Shown piece after piece: positions 1 through 36,289 of a DNA stretch of 36,289 nt. The DNA is from an uncultured beta proteobacterium. Its GTDB lineage: Bacteria > Pseudomonadota > Gammaproteobacteria > Burkholderiales > Burkholderiaceae_C. The stretch covers positions 1 to 36,289 of the forward strand of contig CAIYWD010000107.1 of NCBI GenBank assembly GCA_903929815.1, in the 5' to 3' direction. Position 1 is the stretch's first letter, and each line of letters starts with the position of its first letter. The notes beneath the pieces were generated by a model. It made no database searches. It worked only from the letters and a program-made list of their open reading frames with translations, and was not told the origin of the DNA. The translations under genes were made by a program, and so were the position numbers.

Positions 1-146
1 AAGTTGTGCATTTGGCCGTCAGAGTTGGGATGCCATGCTAGGCGCAAATCGTGCGGTGTGGCCCAGCCACATAAGCGATTTGTAACGACGCAGTGCGCCC
101 AAATCTGACGAGCCAAATGCACAACTTATTATTGACCATATCCTTA
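1..146. repeat. Long imperfect-palindrome repeat, copy 1 (left end cut by window edge)
   Basis: AAGTTGTGCATTTGGCCGTCAGAGTTGGG at 1-29 is the near-perfect inverse of CCCAAATCTGACGAGCCAAATGCACAACTT ending about 126; inner arms CAAATCG/CGATTTG and TGTGGC-CCA-GCCACA; ends in ATTGACCATATCCTTA as in copy 2. Confidence 0.85.
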
Positions 147-357
147 CCTTTCACAGTCTAGGTTTTGACCTAAAGGAAGAGTGATTTTGGACGCCACTCA
201 TATTCAGGCTGATAGACCTGAATGGGTAGTGTAAACGGCGTAGGCACTGGTTTAGTTGGATGGGATTTGAGGAAATCCATTCTGGAAGATGGTAGATGCA
301 ATGTTGAGTGATGAGTAACCTTCATGATGAATCACACCCGTTGGTAAAACCATTGAG

Positions 358-522
358 TAAGGATGTGGTCAATCATAAGTTCCGCATTTGGCCGTCAGAT
401 TTGGGATGCAATGCCAGGCGCAAGGCGCGCTGTGTAGCTTTGTTGCACCAGCGACATGCAGCGACGCAGTGCATCCCAACTCTGACGGCCAAATGCGGAA
501 CTTATTGTTGACCATATCCTTA
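358..522. repeat. Long imperfect-palindrome repeat, copy 2 (complete, about 165 bp)
   Basis: Termini TAAGGATGTGGTCAATCATAAGTTCCGCATTTGGCCGTCAGATTTGGGATGCA and TGCATCCCAACTCTGACGGCCAAATGCGGAACTTATTGTTGACCATATCCTTA are inverted copies; interior is homologous to copy 1. Confidence 0.88.
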
Positions 523-9359: not shown

Positions 9360-10471
9360 GCCTCCTGATCCAGCACCTGTCGACGGGCCATACGCAGCTT
9401 GACTCGTGTTCTGTCCTGAACATCGCCAGCCAATAAACCACAAGCTGCAGAAATATCGCCACCACGTGTTTTACGAATGGTGGTGATCAAGCCCGCATTA
9501 TTCAGTATGCTGGCAAAGGCTTTGATGCGTTCGACACTCGATCCGCGTAAATTGGATGCAGCAAACGAGTTAAAGGGAATCAAATTAAATTTGCACCAGG
9601 CACCAGGATGGCCTTGCGCCCGAATCAATGCTACAAGTTCGTGAGCATCTTTGTCTTGGTCATTGACACCATCGAGCATGCAGTATTCAAAGGTGACAAA
9701 ATCTCTGGGCGCATGTTCTAGGTATCGCAAACAAGCACTCAACAAATCCGCCAAGGGATATTTGAGGTTCAGCGGCATCAAATGGCTACGCAGTGTGTCG
9801 TTGGGCGCATGCAAAGATACCGCCAAGGCTACCGGACAATCACGACCCAGAGCATCCATCTTGGGCAACACGCCTGACGTTGATACCGTGACACGGCGGC
9901 GCGACAAACCGTAAGCGTGGTCATCGAGCATGACCCGCAGCGCAGGCAGTAATTCACGGTAGTTCTGCAGTGGCTCGCCCATTCCCATCATGACCACGTT
10001 GGTAATCACACGCTCACGGGTATGAATGTGCTGACGCAAGTCATGCTCGGCACACCAAAGCTGTGCCACGATTTCGCTGGTTTTCAGATTGCGACTGAAT
10101 CCCTGATGGCCGGTGGCGCAAAACAAGCACCCCATGGGACACCCCGCCTGCGATGACACACACAAGGTGCCACGATCAGCTTCTGCAATAAAGACAGTTT
10201 CAATAGCATCCCCGTTGCCCACATCAAACAGCCACTTGATGGTGCCGTCTGCAGAACTTTTCCGTGAAATTACGTTGGGCGGACAGATACATGCCTGGGT
10301 TTTGAGTTTGTCACGAAAAGACTTGGCCAGATCGGTCATGCCGTCAAAATCACATGCACCTGCTTGATGAATCCAGCGAAATAGTTGTGTGGCACGAAAT
10401 CGTTTTTCACCCAACGTTTGACAATACGCGGCTAAATTTTCAAGATCAAAGTCGAGCAAATTGACCTTCAT
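9356..10471 (-). CDS. rlmN: Dual-specificity 23S rRNA/tRNA adenine C2-methyltransferase
   Basis: Radical SAM CxxxCxx[53 protein letters not shown]. Confidence 0.97.
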
Positions 10472-10481
10472 GGCACAAATC

Positions 10482-10513
10482 AACGTGAAAGTTAACGTGA
10501 AAGTTAACGTGAA
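10482..10513 (+). repeat. Short tandem repeat, 12-bp unit AACGTGAAAGTT, about 2.6 copies
   Basis: AACGTGAAAGTT AACGTGAAAGTT AACGTGAA read directly in the ndk-rlmN junction. Confidence 0.9.
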
Positions 10514-10926
10514 TAAATGGCCATGGAGGGAAAGAAAAATGCTATTTCGACAGCAGCAGTTTCAGGCGCATCCGAACCATGAACGGCGTTGGCATCAATG
10601 GTTTGTGCAAAATCAGCACGGATGGTTCCCTGAGCGGCTTTTTGGGGATCTGTTGCTCCCATTAACTCACGGTTTCTCAAAATGGCATTTTCACCTTCCA
10701 GCACCTGAATCATGATGGGACCGGATGTCATAAAGTCCACCACATCCTCGAAGAACGGACGATCCCGATGCACAGCGTAAAAAGATTGTGCTTCCAAGAC
10801 AGACAAATGGGTCATTTTGGCGGCCACAATTCTCAAGCCAGCCGCTTCAAAACGGGTATAAATCTGACCAATGACATTCTTGGCCACGGCATCAGGTTTG
10901 ATAATGGATAAGGTACGTTCGATCAT
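10504..10926 (-). CDS. ndk: Nucleoside diphosphate kinase
   Basis: [60 protein letters not shown]. Confidence 0.98.
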
Positions 10927-10968
10927 TGCAAATTCCCCAGAAGTTAATAAAAAAACAAGTCTTTGATC

Positions 10969-11106
10969 GTAACCGTTTAGACCCCACCATCGTCATTCCC
11001 GCGAAGGCGGGAATCCAGACTGCCTTTGTACCCTGGTAAACCAACATGCACTGAATTCCCGCCTTCGCGGGAATGACGGCATTTGACATGAGGTCTAAAC
11101 GGTTAC
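10969..11106. mobile_element. MITE-like non-autonomous insertion (138 bp), 15-bp TIRs, 8-bp TSD
   Basis: GTAACCGTTTAGACC (10969-10983) and exact inverse GGTCTAAACGGTTAC (11092-11106), flanked by identical CTTTGATC (10961-10968 and 11107-11114). Interior holds two opposed ATTCCCGCGAAGGCGGGAAT-type palindromes. Confidence 0.88.
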
Positions 11107-11147
11107 CTTTGATCTTAACCATGACGGGTTAAAACATTAAACCATGA

Positions 11148-12299
11148 TTAACGATTTGGTCGGCGTGCATCAAAATACCCTGAAGCACTGCGCCGGCTTT
11201 GCGTTTCTTGCCTTCGTTGCACATAACTGTCAGCACCAATATACCCCAACGAAGTTTTAAGAGGGTCAGGCTGGCCTTTGGGCGCGGGCTTACGTGCCAA
11301 CTTGGACTTGAACTTAGACTTGGACTTGTTTTCGCCTTCACTTCTACCGGCATCACCACGCCCACGCTGTACAGCAACCGGTGATCGCGCCCTTCGTCCA
11401 TCCACATGATGGTCAGTCACCTTTGCAGAAGGTCGATGCGAACGTTCTGCGCCTGCGGCTTGCGTCAACAATGAAATATCACGATCATCTAGCTCCATCC
11501 AGTCACCCCGCTTCAGCCCTCGAGGCAAAACCATGGCACCATAGCGAATGCGAATGAGGCGACTGACGGCATGACCGATGGACTCAAACATGCGTCGAAC
11601 TTCGCGGTTGCGCCCCTCGGCAATCGTGACTTTATACCAGCAGTTAGCGCCTTCGCCGCCCCCTTCTTCAATCGAACCAAACTGCGCCATGCCATCATGG
11701 AGCTTCACACCCTCCAGTAAACGCTTTTTTTCATCTGAACTTAGAGCACCCAGTACGCGCACCGCATACTCGCGCTCCAAACCAAAACGGGGGTGTGTCA
11801 GACGATTGGTTAATTCACCTGAATTACTGAACAAAAGCAAACCCTCTGTATTCAAATCGAGTCGTCCCACAGCCTGCCACTTGCCTTGAGATAACCTGGG
11901 TAATTTGCGAAAAACCGTGGGGCGATTGCGCGGATCATCATGCGTCACGATTTCACCCGCAGGCTTGTGGTAGGCAATCACACGCGTGGCAAGAGGTGCA
12001 ATCCTGATTTGCACAGGTTTGCCGTTAACTTTGACGTGGTCACCCAACTGGATACGTTGGCCAATATGAGCAGGCTCATCATTGACTGAGATGCGCCCTT
12101 GTGCAATAAGTTGCTCCACATTCAATCTCGAACCCACTCCCGCCTGCGCCAACACCTTGTGCAACTTAGGCGAGTCCGACTCTGGAGCCAACACCCTTTT
12201 AAACTCAGCCTCAACAGGCAAAACATCGGTGTCAAAACGACCCGATACCACGTCATCAAAACTTATTTTTTGCATAGGGTTGTGTTCTTTGTTCTTCAT
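11148..12299 (-). CDS. rluB: 23S rRNA pseudouridine synthase B-type, with basic C-terminal tail
   Basis: S4 domain (KLHKVLAQAGVGSRLNVEQLIAQGRISVND), GRLDLNTEGLLLFSNSGELTNRLTHPR, EGRNREVRRMFESIGHAVSRLIRIRYG; Lys/Arg-rich tail. Confidence 0.92.
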   Translation of the reverse strand: MKNKEHNPMQKISFDDVVSGRFDTDVLPVEAEFKRVLAPESDSPKLHKVLAQAGVGSRLNVEQLIAQGRISVNDEPAHIGQRIQLGDHVKVNGKPVQIRIAPLATRVIAYHKPAGEIVTHDDPRNRPTVFRKLPRLSQGKWQAVGRLDLNTEGLLLFSNSGELTNRLTHPRFGLEREYAVRVLGALSSDEKKRLLEGVKLHDGMAQFGSIEEGGGEGANCWYKVTIAEGRNREVRRMFESIGHAVSRLIRIRYGAMVLPRGLKRGDWMELDDRDISLLTQAAGAERSHRPSAKVTDHHVDGRRARSPVAVQRGRGDAGRSEGENKSKSKFKSKLARKPAPKGQPDPLKTSLGYIGADSYVQRRQETQSRRSASGYFDARRPNR

Positions 12300-15191: not shown

Positions 15192-15223
15192 GATCTAGGA
15201 TTTAGGATATAGGATATAGGATA
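15189..15223 (+). repeat. Heptamer tandem repeat TAGGATN x5
   Basis: TAGGATC TAGGATT TAGGATA TAGGATA TAGGATA then TGGTTAATAATAA; first three bases are the PP2C stop codon. Confidence 0.92.
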
Positions 15224-15370
15224 TGGTTAATAATAATTTTTCTATCTAAAAAATTTCAAAAAACGTAGCAAACAATGCAGTACCAGAGCGCGTTATAACC
15301 GAATTTGGTACAATTTTTGACGTAGAAAACTTTTCGTTTTTTGAAATGGGCGAACGATCAGCAATCTGGT

Positions 15371-25913: not shown

Positions 25914-26438
25914 TCAGCGTTTGTCACGAATTTTTTTGACCAGTGCCGTTGTAGAGTAGCCGGTCACAAATGGCAGCGCCAAAGCGTATCCTCCCCACGA
26001 TTTCACCAACTGCGTTTCAGCCAGTTGGGTGATGTCGTAATCGCCCCCTTTGACAAAAATATCAGGGCGCACACGGCTTAACAATTGCAGCGGTGTATCT
26101 TCATCAAACCAGGTGACACAAGTTGAACTGGACAGTGCTGCCACCACACAAGCTCGGTCATTTTCATTGTTGAGGGGGCGATCAGCCCCTTTGCCCAAGC
26201 GGCGTGCCGAAGCATCGGTATTCAAGGCCACCAACAGGCTATTGCCCAGCGTGCGAGCTTGCGCCAGATACATGACATGACCCCGGTGCAAAACGTCAAA
26301 AACACCATTGGTAAACACCATGGGACGCTCAATCTGTGCCAGACGTTCTGGCAATGCATCACCATCGCACAGCTTGGCATCCAGCCAGGACGCATCGAAC
26401 AAGCCGTCCAATGCAGGAATAGAAGGGGTTTCAGGCAT
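25914..26438 (-). CDS. rfaE2: D-glycero-beta-D-manno-heptose 1-phosphate adenylyltransferase (RfaE2/HldE C-domain type)
   Basis: FTNGVFDVLHRGHVMYLAQARTLGNSLLVALNTDASARRLGKGADRPLNNENDRACVVAAL, VKGGDYDI; preferred start MPETPSIP at 26438. Confidence 0.92.
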   Translation of the reverse strand: MPETPSIPALDGLFDASWLDAKLCDGDALPERLAQIERPMVFTNGVFDVLHRGHVMYLAQARTLGNSLLVALNTDASARRLGKGADRPLNNENDRACVVAALSSSTCVTWFDEDTPLQLLSRVRPDIFVKGGDYDITQLAETQLVKSWGGYALALPFVTGYSTTALVKKIRDKR

Positions 26439-26480
26439 AAGGATATTCAATATGTGGAACTTATTGCTGACCATATCCTA
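26438..26480. repeat. Short derivative of the left-edge palindrome repeat
   Basis: TAAGGATAT...GTGGAACTTATTGCTGACCATATCCTAA; matches copy 2 right end GCGGAACTTATTGTTGACCATATCCTTA and retains inverted AGGATAT/ATATCCT ends. Confidence 0.7.
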
Positions 26481-26572
26481 AGCTCCATGTTATCAGTCTG
26501 TATAAATTTCATCAACTCAACCCAAGTTTGGGACTTGGCTATTATTGGAGATACACATCCATCGCATCCATC

Positions 26573-34782: not shown

Positions 34783-36132
34783 ATGGCATCTGCACTTACC
34801 GACAAACTCACCCGCTTGGTCAAAGAGCTTCGCGGACAGGCCAGAATCACCGAATCCAACGTCTCTGACATGTTGCGCGAAGTGCGCATGGCATTGCTTG
34901 AGGCCGATGTAGCACTCCCGGTGGTGCGCGACTTTATCGCACGCGTCAAAGACAAAGCGCTAGGGCAAGATGTGCTGGGGTCACTTTCGCCCGGAGAGGC
35001 GCTTGTTGCCATTGTCAATCAGGAACTTGCCGCCACCATGGGCGATGGCGTGGCTGACATCAACCTCGCTGTTGTGCCGCCGGCAGTCATTTTGATGGCA
35101 GGTCTGCAAGGTGCGGGTAAAACCACCACGGCTGCCAAACTGGCCAAGCATTTGATTGAAAAACGCGGCAAAAAAGTGCTGACCGTCTCTGCTGACGTGT
35201 ATCGGCCAGCAGCCATTGAGCAGCTCAAACAAGTCACGGCGCAAGCTGGTGCTCAATGGTTTGAAAGCAACTCTGACCAAAAGCCGGTGGACATTGCACT
35301 GGCAGCACTGGACTATGCCCGCAAGCATTATTTTGACGTGCTGCTCGTCGATACCGCCGGGCGGCTGGCCATTGATGAGGCATTGATGCGTGAAATCAGC
35401 GACCTTCACACAGCCCTTCAACCCATAGAAACCCTGTTTGTAGTCGATGCCATGCAGGGGCAAGATGCCGTGAATACCGCCAAAGCATTCAAAGAAGCTT
35501 TGCCGCTGACCGGCATTATCCTGACCAAGCTCGACGGTGACTCGCGCGGGGGGGCAGCGCTGTCTGTTCGCCACGTGACGGGTGTTCCCATCAAATTTGC
35601 TGGCATCAGTGAAAAAATTGATGGACTCGAAATATTTGATGCCAATCGTCACGCCGGTCGCATTCTGGGCATGGGCGACATTTTGGCCCTAGTAGAGCAA
35701 GTCACCGCAGGAATGGACATGGCAGCATCGCTAAAGCTCGCCAACAAGGTCAAAAGCGGGGGTACTTTTGATTTGAACGACTTTTTAGATCAAATTCAGC
35801 AAGTGAGCCAAATGGGTGGACTTTCCAGCATCATGGACAAACTGCCTGCCGCCATGGCTGCCCAGGCCAGTCAGATGGATATGGGGAAGGCTGAAAAAGA
35901 CATCAAACACAAAATTGGCATCATCCACAGCATGACCCCGCTTGAGCGACGCAAACCCGAACTGATCAAAGCCACACGCAAGCGCCGCATCGCAGCCGGT
36001 GCAGGTGTTTTGGTGCAGGATGTCAATCGCATGCTCAAGGAATTTGAGCAAGTACAAGGCTTGATGAAAAAAATGAAAGGCAGTGGCATGATGAAAATGA
36101 TGAAACGCCTGGGCGGCATGAAAGGTATTTAG
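34783..36132 (+). CDS. ffh: Signal recognition particle protein Ffh
   Basis: GLQGAGKTTTAAKLAKHL, LLVDTAGRLAIDE, TKLDGDSRGGAALSVRHVTGVPIKFAG, Met-rich C-terminus MKKMKGSGMMKMMKRLGGMKGI. Confidence 0.98.
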   Translation: MASALTDKLTRLVKELRGQARITESNVSDMLREVRMALLEADVALPVVRDFIARVKDKALGQDVLGSLSPGEALVAIVNQELAATMGDGVADINLAVVPPAVILMAGLQGAGKTTTAAKLAKHLIEKRGKKVLTVSADVYRPAAIEQLKQVTAQAGAQWFESNSDQKPVDIALAALDYARKHYFDVLLVDTAGRLAIDEALMREISDLHTALQPIETLFVVDAMQGQDAVNTAKAFKEALPLTGIILTKLDGDSRGGAALSVRHVTGVPIKFAGISEKIDGLEIFDANRHAGRILGMGDILALVEQVTAGMDMAASLKLANKVKSGGTFDLNDFLDQIQQVSQMGGLSSIMDKLPAAMAAQASQMDMGKAEKDIKHKIGIIHSMTPLERRKPELIKATRKRRIAAGAGVLVQDVNRMLKEFEQVQGLMKKMKGSGMMKMMKRLGGMKGI

Positions 36133-36218
36133 GATATGGTCAAGAATAACTCACGGTTCGCTTATTTCAACCCCCAGTTCTTGAGATTGCCGGGTGCGAT
36201 TCAAAGTGATGTGGGATT

Positions 36219-36277
36219 CTGGGAGCGAGGGCGTCTCGCCCTCGGGTGTTTCGATGGCAAGATGCCCTCGCTCCCAG
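36219..36277 (+). repeat. Compound inverted repeat with competing hairpins, downstream of ffh
   Basis: CTGGGAGCGAGGGCGTC (36219-36235) pairs with GATGCCCTCGCTCCCAG (36261-36277); alternatively CGAGGGCG-TCT-CGCCCTCG (36226-36244); followed by GTTTTTGG. Confidence 0.8.
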
Positions 36278-36289
36278 GTTTTTGGCTCA

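Follow-up and report, generated by a model that had tools for sequence, protein, structure and literature searches.

Palindromic, non-coding repeats of about 160 bp in a Burkholderiales genome: a probable MITE, with proposed mobilisation by an IS5-type enzyme and proposed spread of matched ends

Two long hairpin repeats lie at the start of a contig from an uncultured beta proteobacterium, and at matching arm positions one carries GTG/CAC where the other carries CCG/CGG. The locus raises the question of what kind of element these repeats are, and how the two arms of a stem came to change together. The window that we analysed, 36,289 nucleotides long, is the whole contig (G000:C107). The original prediction had described two homologous repeats about 210 bp apart, the first cut by the edge, each folding into one long hairpin, with the triplets given above and no transposase nearby. 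All of these points proved to be correct. The repeats share 76% identity across 103 nt, rising to 91% in the final 35 nt, the first is truncated where the contig itself starts, and the gap between them extends from 147 to 357. Both folds were better than those of shuffled sequences, with −78.2 kcal/mol (z −9.9) for copy 1 and −116.5 kcal/mol (z −17) for copy 2, and 0 of 200 shuffles was as good in either case. The arms of copy 2 (358-414 and 466-522, 57 nt) are 91% complementary. No transposase was found among the 29 window ORFs scanned. The end motif occurs six times in the window, where 0.01 is expected, and copy 1 is 96-99% identical to other copies in the genome. Copies 1 and 2 are two members of a genome-wide family and no special pair (Table 1).

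Table 1. Members of the repeat family and their flanking bases in the window
Feature	Position	Strand	Remarks
MITE copy 1, GTG/CAC subtype	1..143	+	left ~16 bp missing at contig start; followed by TTA at 144-146
TAA left of copy 2	358..360	+	expected position of the target duplication; right side differs
MITE copy 2, CCG/CGG subtype, 159 bp	361..519	+	near-perfect palindrome (alignment, fold)
Left arm of the copy 2 palindrome	361..414	+	starts with terminal repeat GGATGTGGTCAATCATAAGTT
Right arm of the copy 2 palindrome	466..519	-	terminal repeat at its end (GGATATGGTCAACAATAAGTT on - strand)
TTA right of copy 2	520..522	+	differs from TAA; copy 2 thus lacks an intact target duplication
Remnant	15219..15335	+	terminal repeat (15219-15239), then another interior, 'family B', TTTCAAAAAACGTAGCAAAC...; right limit approximate
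38-bp internal-deletion derivative	26441..26478	+	flanked by TAA (26438-26440) and TAA (26479-26481)
Solo left end	36132..36152	+	after TTA (36129-36131); adjoins SRP54 (Ffh) gene

The 38-bp derivative sits in the start region of an rfaE2/hldE-like gene (25914-26474, - strand), and the TAG stop codon of ffh (36130-36132) spans the boundary between the target TTA and the MITE end, whose first base completes it. The end of the window (36193-36289) holds another family of palindromic repeats, with ends like GGGTGCGTTTCAAAGTGATGTGG, followed by an inverted repeat GGGAGCGAGGGC...GCCCTCGCTCCC. Repeats of the GGGTGCGTTTCAAAGTGATGTGG type were also seen at L068 6216-6689, L098 541-1013 and near L109 2541, sometimes nested with or inside the MITE.

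A genome search for the 21-bp end GGATATGGTCANNAATAAGTT, allowing up to 3 mismatches, gave 372 matches (189 + 183) in the 2.6-Mb genome G000 and none with a reversed control, so that further copies are plentiful. The sister species G105 has 391 such matches, and no other genome among the 90 members of the genus that were searched has more than five. The element is bounded by GGATATGGTCAA...TTGACCATATCC, with 21-bp terminal inverted repeats on both sides, measures 159 or 160 bp in most copies, and has an imperfect palindrome without a long ORF as its interior. Direct reading of about 0.74 Mb, on contigs partly picked for holding ends, revealed 44 elements with both ends, mainly 158-160 bp long. 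A further 66 ends were unpaired, some of them at contig edges and others in remnants. There were also nested insertions, derivatives measuring 49-143 bp and 'family B', a second interior between the same ends, of which the remnant at 15219 is an example. Forty-three of 45 copies lay outside ORFs, although ORFs cover 86% of the sequence by crude ORF calling. As expected of MITEs, the copies are dispersed, numerous and insertionally polymorphic. Some are broken by an inverted repeat GTCATTCCCGCGAAGGCGGGAATCCAG (L090 near 7081, L100 near 12005 and L109 near 357), which is abundant in this genome as well. The MITE repeats interfere with short-read assembly: of 100 contig starts, 13 were no more than 185 bp from an element end, where 1.3% would be expected.

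The flanks of the copies carry the marks of transposition. Identical 3-mers were found on both sides of 55 of the 86 distinct copies of G000 and G105 (33.4 ± 4.1 in shuffles), 29 of them TAA and 24 TTA, the others being TTT and TTG. Because neither TAA/TAA nor TTA/TTA can belong to the palindrome, these pairs are target duplications. Their length fits 3 bp; the 4-bp YTAR duplication of the IS5 group proper was rejected because the flanking bases at −4/+4 do not fit. For L188, a G105 copy, the matching G000 locus is an exact empty site holding TAA just once; the locus matching L190 is nearly clean, and short leftovers remain at two others. These results show non-autonomous DNA transposition with 3-bp duplications. 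The orthologous 'empty' counterpart of L117:1809-1969, in L102, has the sequence CCTTTACCTTTAG in place of the expected single TTA-flanked insertion and may be an excision footprint.

As a MITE, the element is of a known kind (PMC10969869). Prokaryotic MITEs are short, non-coding, intergenic and foldable, with terminal inverted repeats and target duplications (PMC10969869), traits that Correia/NEMIS, RUP, ERIC, Chunjie and QMITE have in common with the repeats described here, which are below 500 bp, have no coding capacity and carry terminal inverted repeats and a 3-bp target duplication.

A likely mobilising enzyme is a DDE transposase of the IS5-family type, with IS1031/IS427-like target choice, which would act in trans, cut at the GGATATGG/GGATGTGG ends and insert the element into C-TWA-G sites. 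The TWA duplication in C-TWA-G context was also measured in IS5-family-type (DUF4096) elements of the same genus in other genomes, for example in an IS of about 910 bp in G064, where there are 11 DUF4096 matches and several copies have TAA/TAA or TTA/TTA flanks. Repeats from other genera that have the core of the MITE agree with IS5-family elements of related genomes in about 13 bases at their termini (GGGAACCTCTGCA, GGGCGTGTCATCA), and a TGA duplication occurs in the relatives L255 and L267. Like these IS, the MITE has ends starting with GG/GA; it differs in that no transposase element with its exact GGATATGG end was found in G000 or G105, which are draft bins (about 1 Mb of G000 was read). 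We infer mobilisation in trans, and with it the type of transposase, from the TWA match and the ends shared in other genera. Other DDE families can also make 3-bp duplications. The eukaryotic relatives of the IS5 family are PIF/Harbinger and the Tourist MITEs.

Several candidate partners were rejected. A single IS5-type IS close to a contig end (L077, about 10326-11490) encodes a 298-aa transposase that matches DDE_Tnp_4, but its ends read about TTATTGGAAACC. For an IS1634-like gene in C145, no matching ends were seen in the flanks. Among TIR-bounded intervals of 0.5-2.2 kb, judged from positions and with the ORFs inside profiled in part, the two-ended ones were gaps between neighbouring MITEs or chance matches.

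Taken together, these data make it highly probable that each repeat is one copy of a non-autonomous transposon, palindromic, non-coding and about 160 bp long: a MITE that is mobilised by an IS5-type enzyme and spreads with matched ends. The original prediction had considered a REP/RAYT-like or other hairpin-mobilised element plausible but unproven. Under the REP/RAYT explanation, a Y1 transposase would act on the hairpin in its single-stranded DNA form. The repeats do resemble REP/RAYT systems and REPINs in being abundant intergenic hairpins, and G105 has two Y1_Tnp (PF01797) matches. However, G000 has none, and the 3-bp target duplications and the exact empty site are unexpected for Y1 elements. 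At about 160 bp and with target duplications, the element also departs from REPs, which are defined as 20-40 bp palindromes with a GTAG/CGTC tag and no target duplication (PMC3733652). This explanation is extremely improbable, and the single-strand idea is not supported. It is also very improbable that the repeats are decayed ends of one ordinary IS with no separate miniature element. MITEs commonly derive from IS (PMC10969869) and solo ends are frequent here; on the other hand, the search found no IS with these ends in the G000 and G105 drafts, copy length is uniform, and the element has its own interior, more conserved between species than the ends. The prediction of a mobile repeat with many copies was borne out.

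We then asked how the arms vary within the genome. The triplets were matched in 47 of 71 complete copies, compared with 24.6 ± 3.7 in shuffles; some copies present in both species are included, so that the 71 rows are not all independent. The remaining 24 were mismatched, 12 of them combining a GTG end with a CCG end. The covariation is limited to about five column pairs, which define three end-subfamilies (GTG, CCG and CCC), and the CCC subfamily tends to have G at positions 5 and 12 too. The claim that both strands of the stem changed together therefore holds as a correlation of the arms, but only in a few columns and at the level of subfamilies. An insertion shared by the two species (L125 in G105, L362 in G000) has CCG in the left arm in G105 and GTG in G000, with CGG in both right arms; an arm was changed in place here, in one direction or the other. 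The L362 MITE (G000 contig C77), the ortholog of L125:4422-4581, also holds an insert of about 220 bp with ends AGGCTGTCGGACTTGA...AAGCCCGACAGCCT inside its core, which the sister species lacks.

The core of the element reaches beyond these two species. Repeats with the same core and other ends occur in other Rhodoferax-type genomes (GGGCTTGTTCAC, GGGCTTGTCCAC, GGGCTCGCAAAG, GGGTCAGTTCAG, GGGATGCAGAAAT). Of 301 genomes sampled within the family, 27 carry the core, in 22 of 126 genera; sampling 398 genomes across the phylum extended its range by three families inside the order and one beyond. The single match in a plasmid collection was weak: a hairpin limited to the core, without recognisable transposon ends, on the Mitsuaria plasmid NZ_CP011515.1 (L219 600-700), flanked by xrtB and a tyrosine autokinase gene. 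A phage collection gave no match. Two core relatives, L222 and L260, are larger (270-282 bp), end in CTAGGGCGTGTCATC and TAGGAGCCTGTCGGACTTAA, and seem to contain a further hairpin in addition to that of the conserved core. The core falls short of a perfect palindrome: its two sides read GCGTCGTTGCAAAT and TTTGCGCCTWGC, each is conserved, and unpaired positions are therefore conserved too. The core-sharing family looks undescribed so far: a search of open papers gave no description of the core sequence or of MITEs in Rhodoferax, and ISfinder may list the family.

In 28 aligned members, picked at about 160 bp, the central 46 bp were 74% identical between members and the outer arms about 55% (random 51%). 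An arm was 79% identical to its own partner and 55.5% to arms of other elements, the own partner being the best in 24 of the 28, with the limit that end detection itself needed a terminal match; at positions 30-48, outside end detection, the values were 72% within and 58% between members. These values come from arm-to-arm comparison, chosen because alignment register kept RNAalifold from detecting the outer arms in the wide set. By these comparisons, the case for a concerted change of the arms throughout the family is a strong one.

How, then, do the ends stay matched? The original prediction held that the fold, as single-stranded DNA or RNA, is maintained or copied. In the first case the repeat would be transcribed and its fold, as a terminator, an mRNA stabiliser or a small RNA, kept by compensatory mutation. 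The fold is very stable, the arm changes are correlated and the core is conserved across genera, as this explanation would have it. Nonetheless, sporadic changes outside the covarying columns were one-sided in 181 cases and two-sided in 7, and G-T (44) was no commoner than A-C (53). Because a selected fold would favour G-T and two-sided repair, RNA-fold selection on the repeats is unlikely. In addition, no Rfam model matched the repeats at gathering score, the repeats have no terminator-like site, and the neighbouring-gene arrangement around the copies is that of the genome background; a terminator or promoter role was rejected, with counts at shuffle level. The case for a maintained fold is therefore weak within this genome, and copying fits better. 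A more serious alternative, which we rate at somewhat less than an even chance, has no arm copying at all. Each subfamily would descend from a single founder whose ends matched, and would have spread through the need of the transposase for such ends, and the mixed copies would be recombinants between subfamilies. The existence of mixed GTG/CCG copies and the linkage of only about five covarying column pairs into three subfamilies agree with this, but it does not account for ends that, from genus to genus, have repeatedly changed as a pair about a single core.

We prefer a mechanism in which matching is both selected and renewed. Copies with matched ends would spread best because one transposase must fit both ends. 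The long palindrome would let one arm be rewritten from the other by template switching, or an arm could be rewritten from another copy by gene conversion. The outcome would be matched end variants (GTG, CCG and CCC) and, in the longer term, wholesale change of both ends around the conserved central hairpin, while single copies would decay after insertion without compensation. A single template-switching event can copy one arm of a hairpin onto the other and give multi-base compensatory changes, as was shown for RNA genes (PMC8794818); here the same event is proposed for a transposon, in which it would renew both transposase sites simultaneously. We infer that new matched ends arise by arm copying; recombination between copies would leave the same picture.

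The element differs from the known prokaryotic MITEs in that nearly the whole of it is one palindrome, and that between species its centre is conserved and its ends change. Ordinary MITEs are recognised through the ends that they have in common with a parent IS. The unusual feature here is the reversed pattern, a conserved centre with changing ends that change in step. A wider reading, which we offer as a tentative and rather doubtful one, is a Burkholderiales-wide superfamily of palindromes of about 160 bp that would be defined by the asymmetric core (GCGTCGTTGCAAAT...TTTGCGCCTWGC) and not by its ends; arm copying would renew both sites together, the element could follow or switch transposases, and a host or transposition factor would recognise the core. 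If arm copying is the cause, it would explain how a non-autonomous element keeps two matching sites as transposases diverge, and it would caution against reading selection on a fold into every compensatory change in the stem of a repeat.
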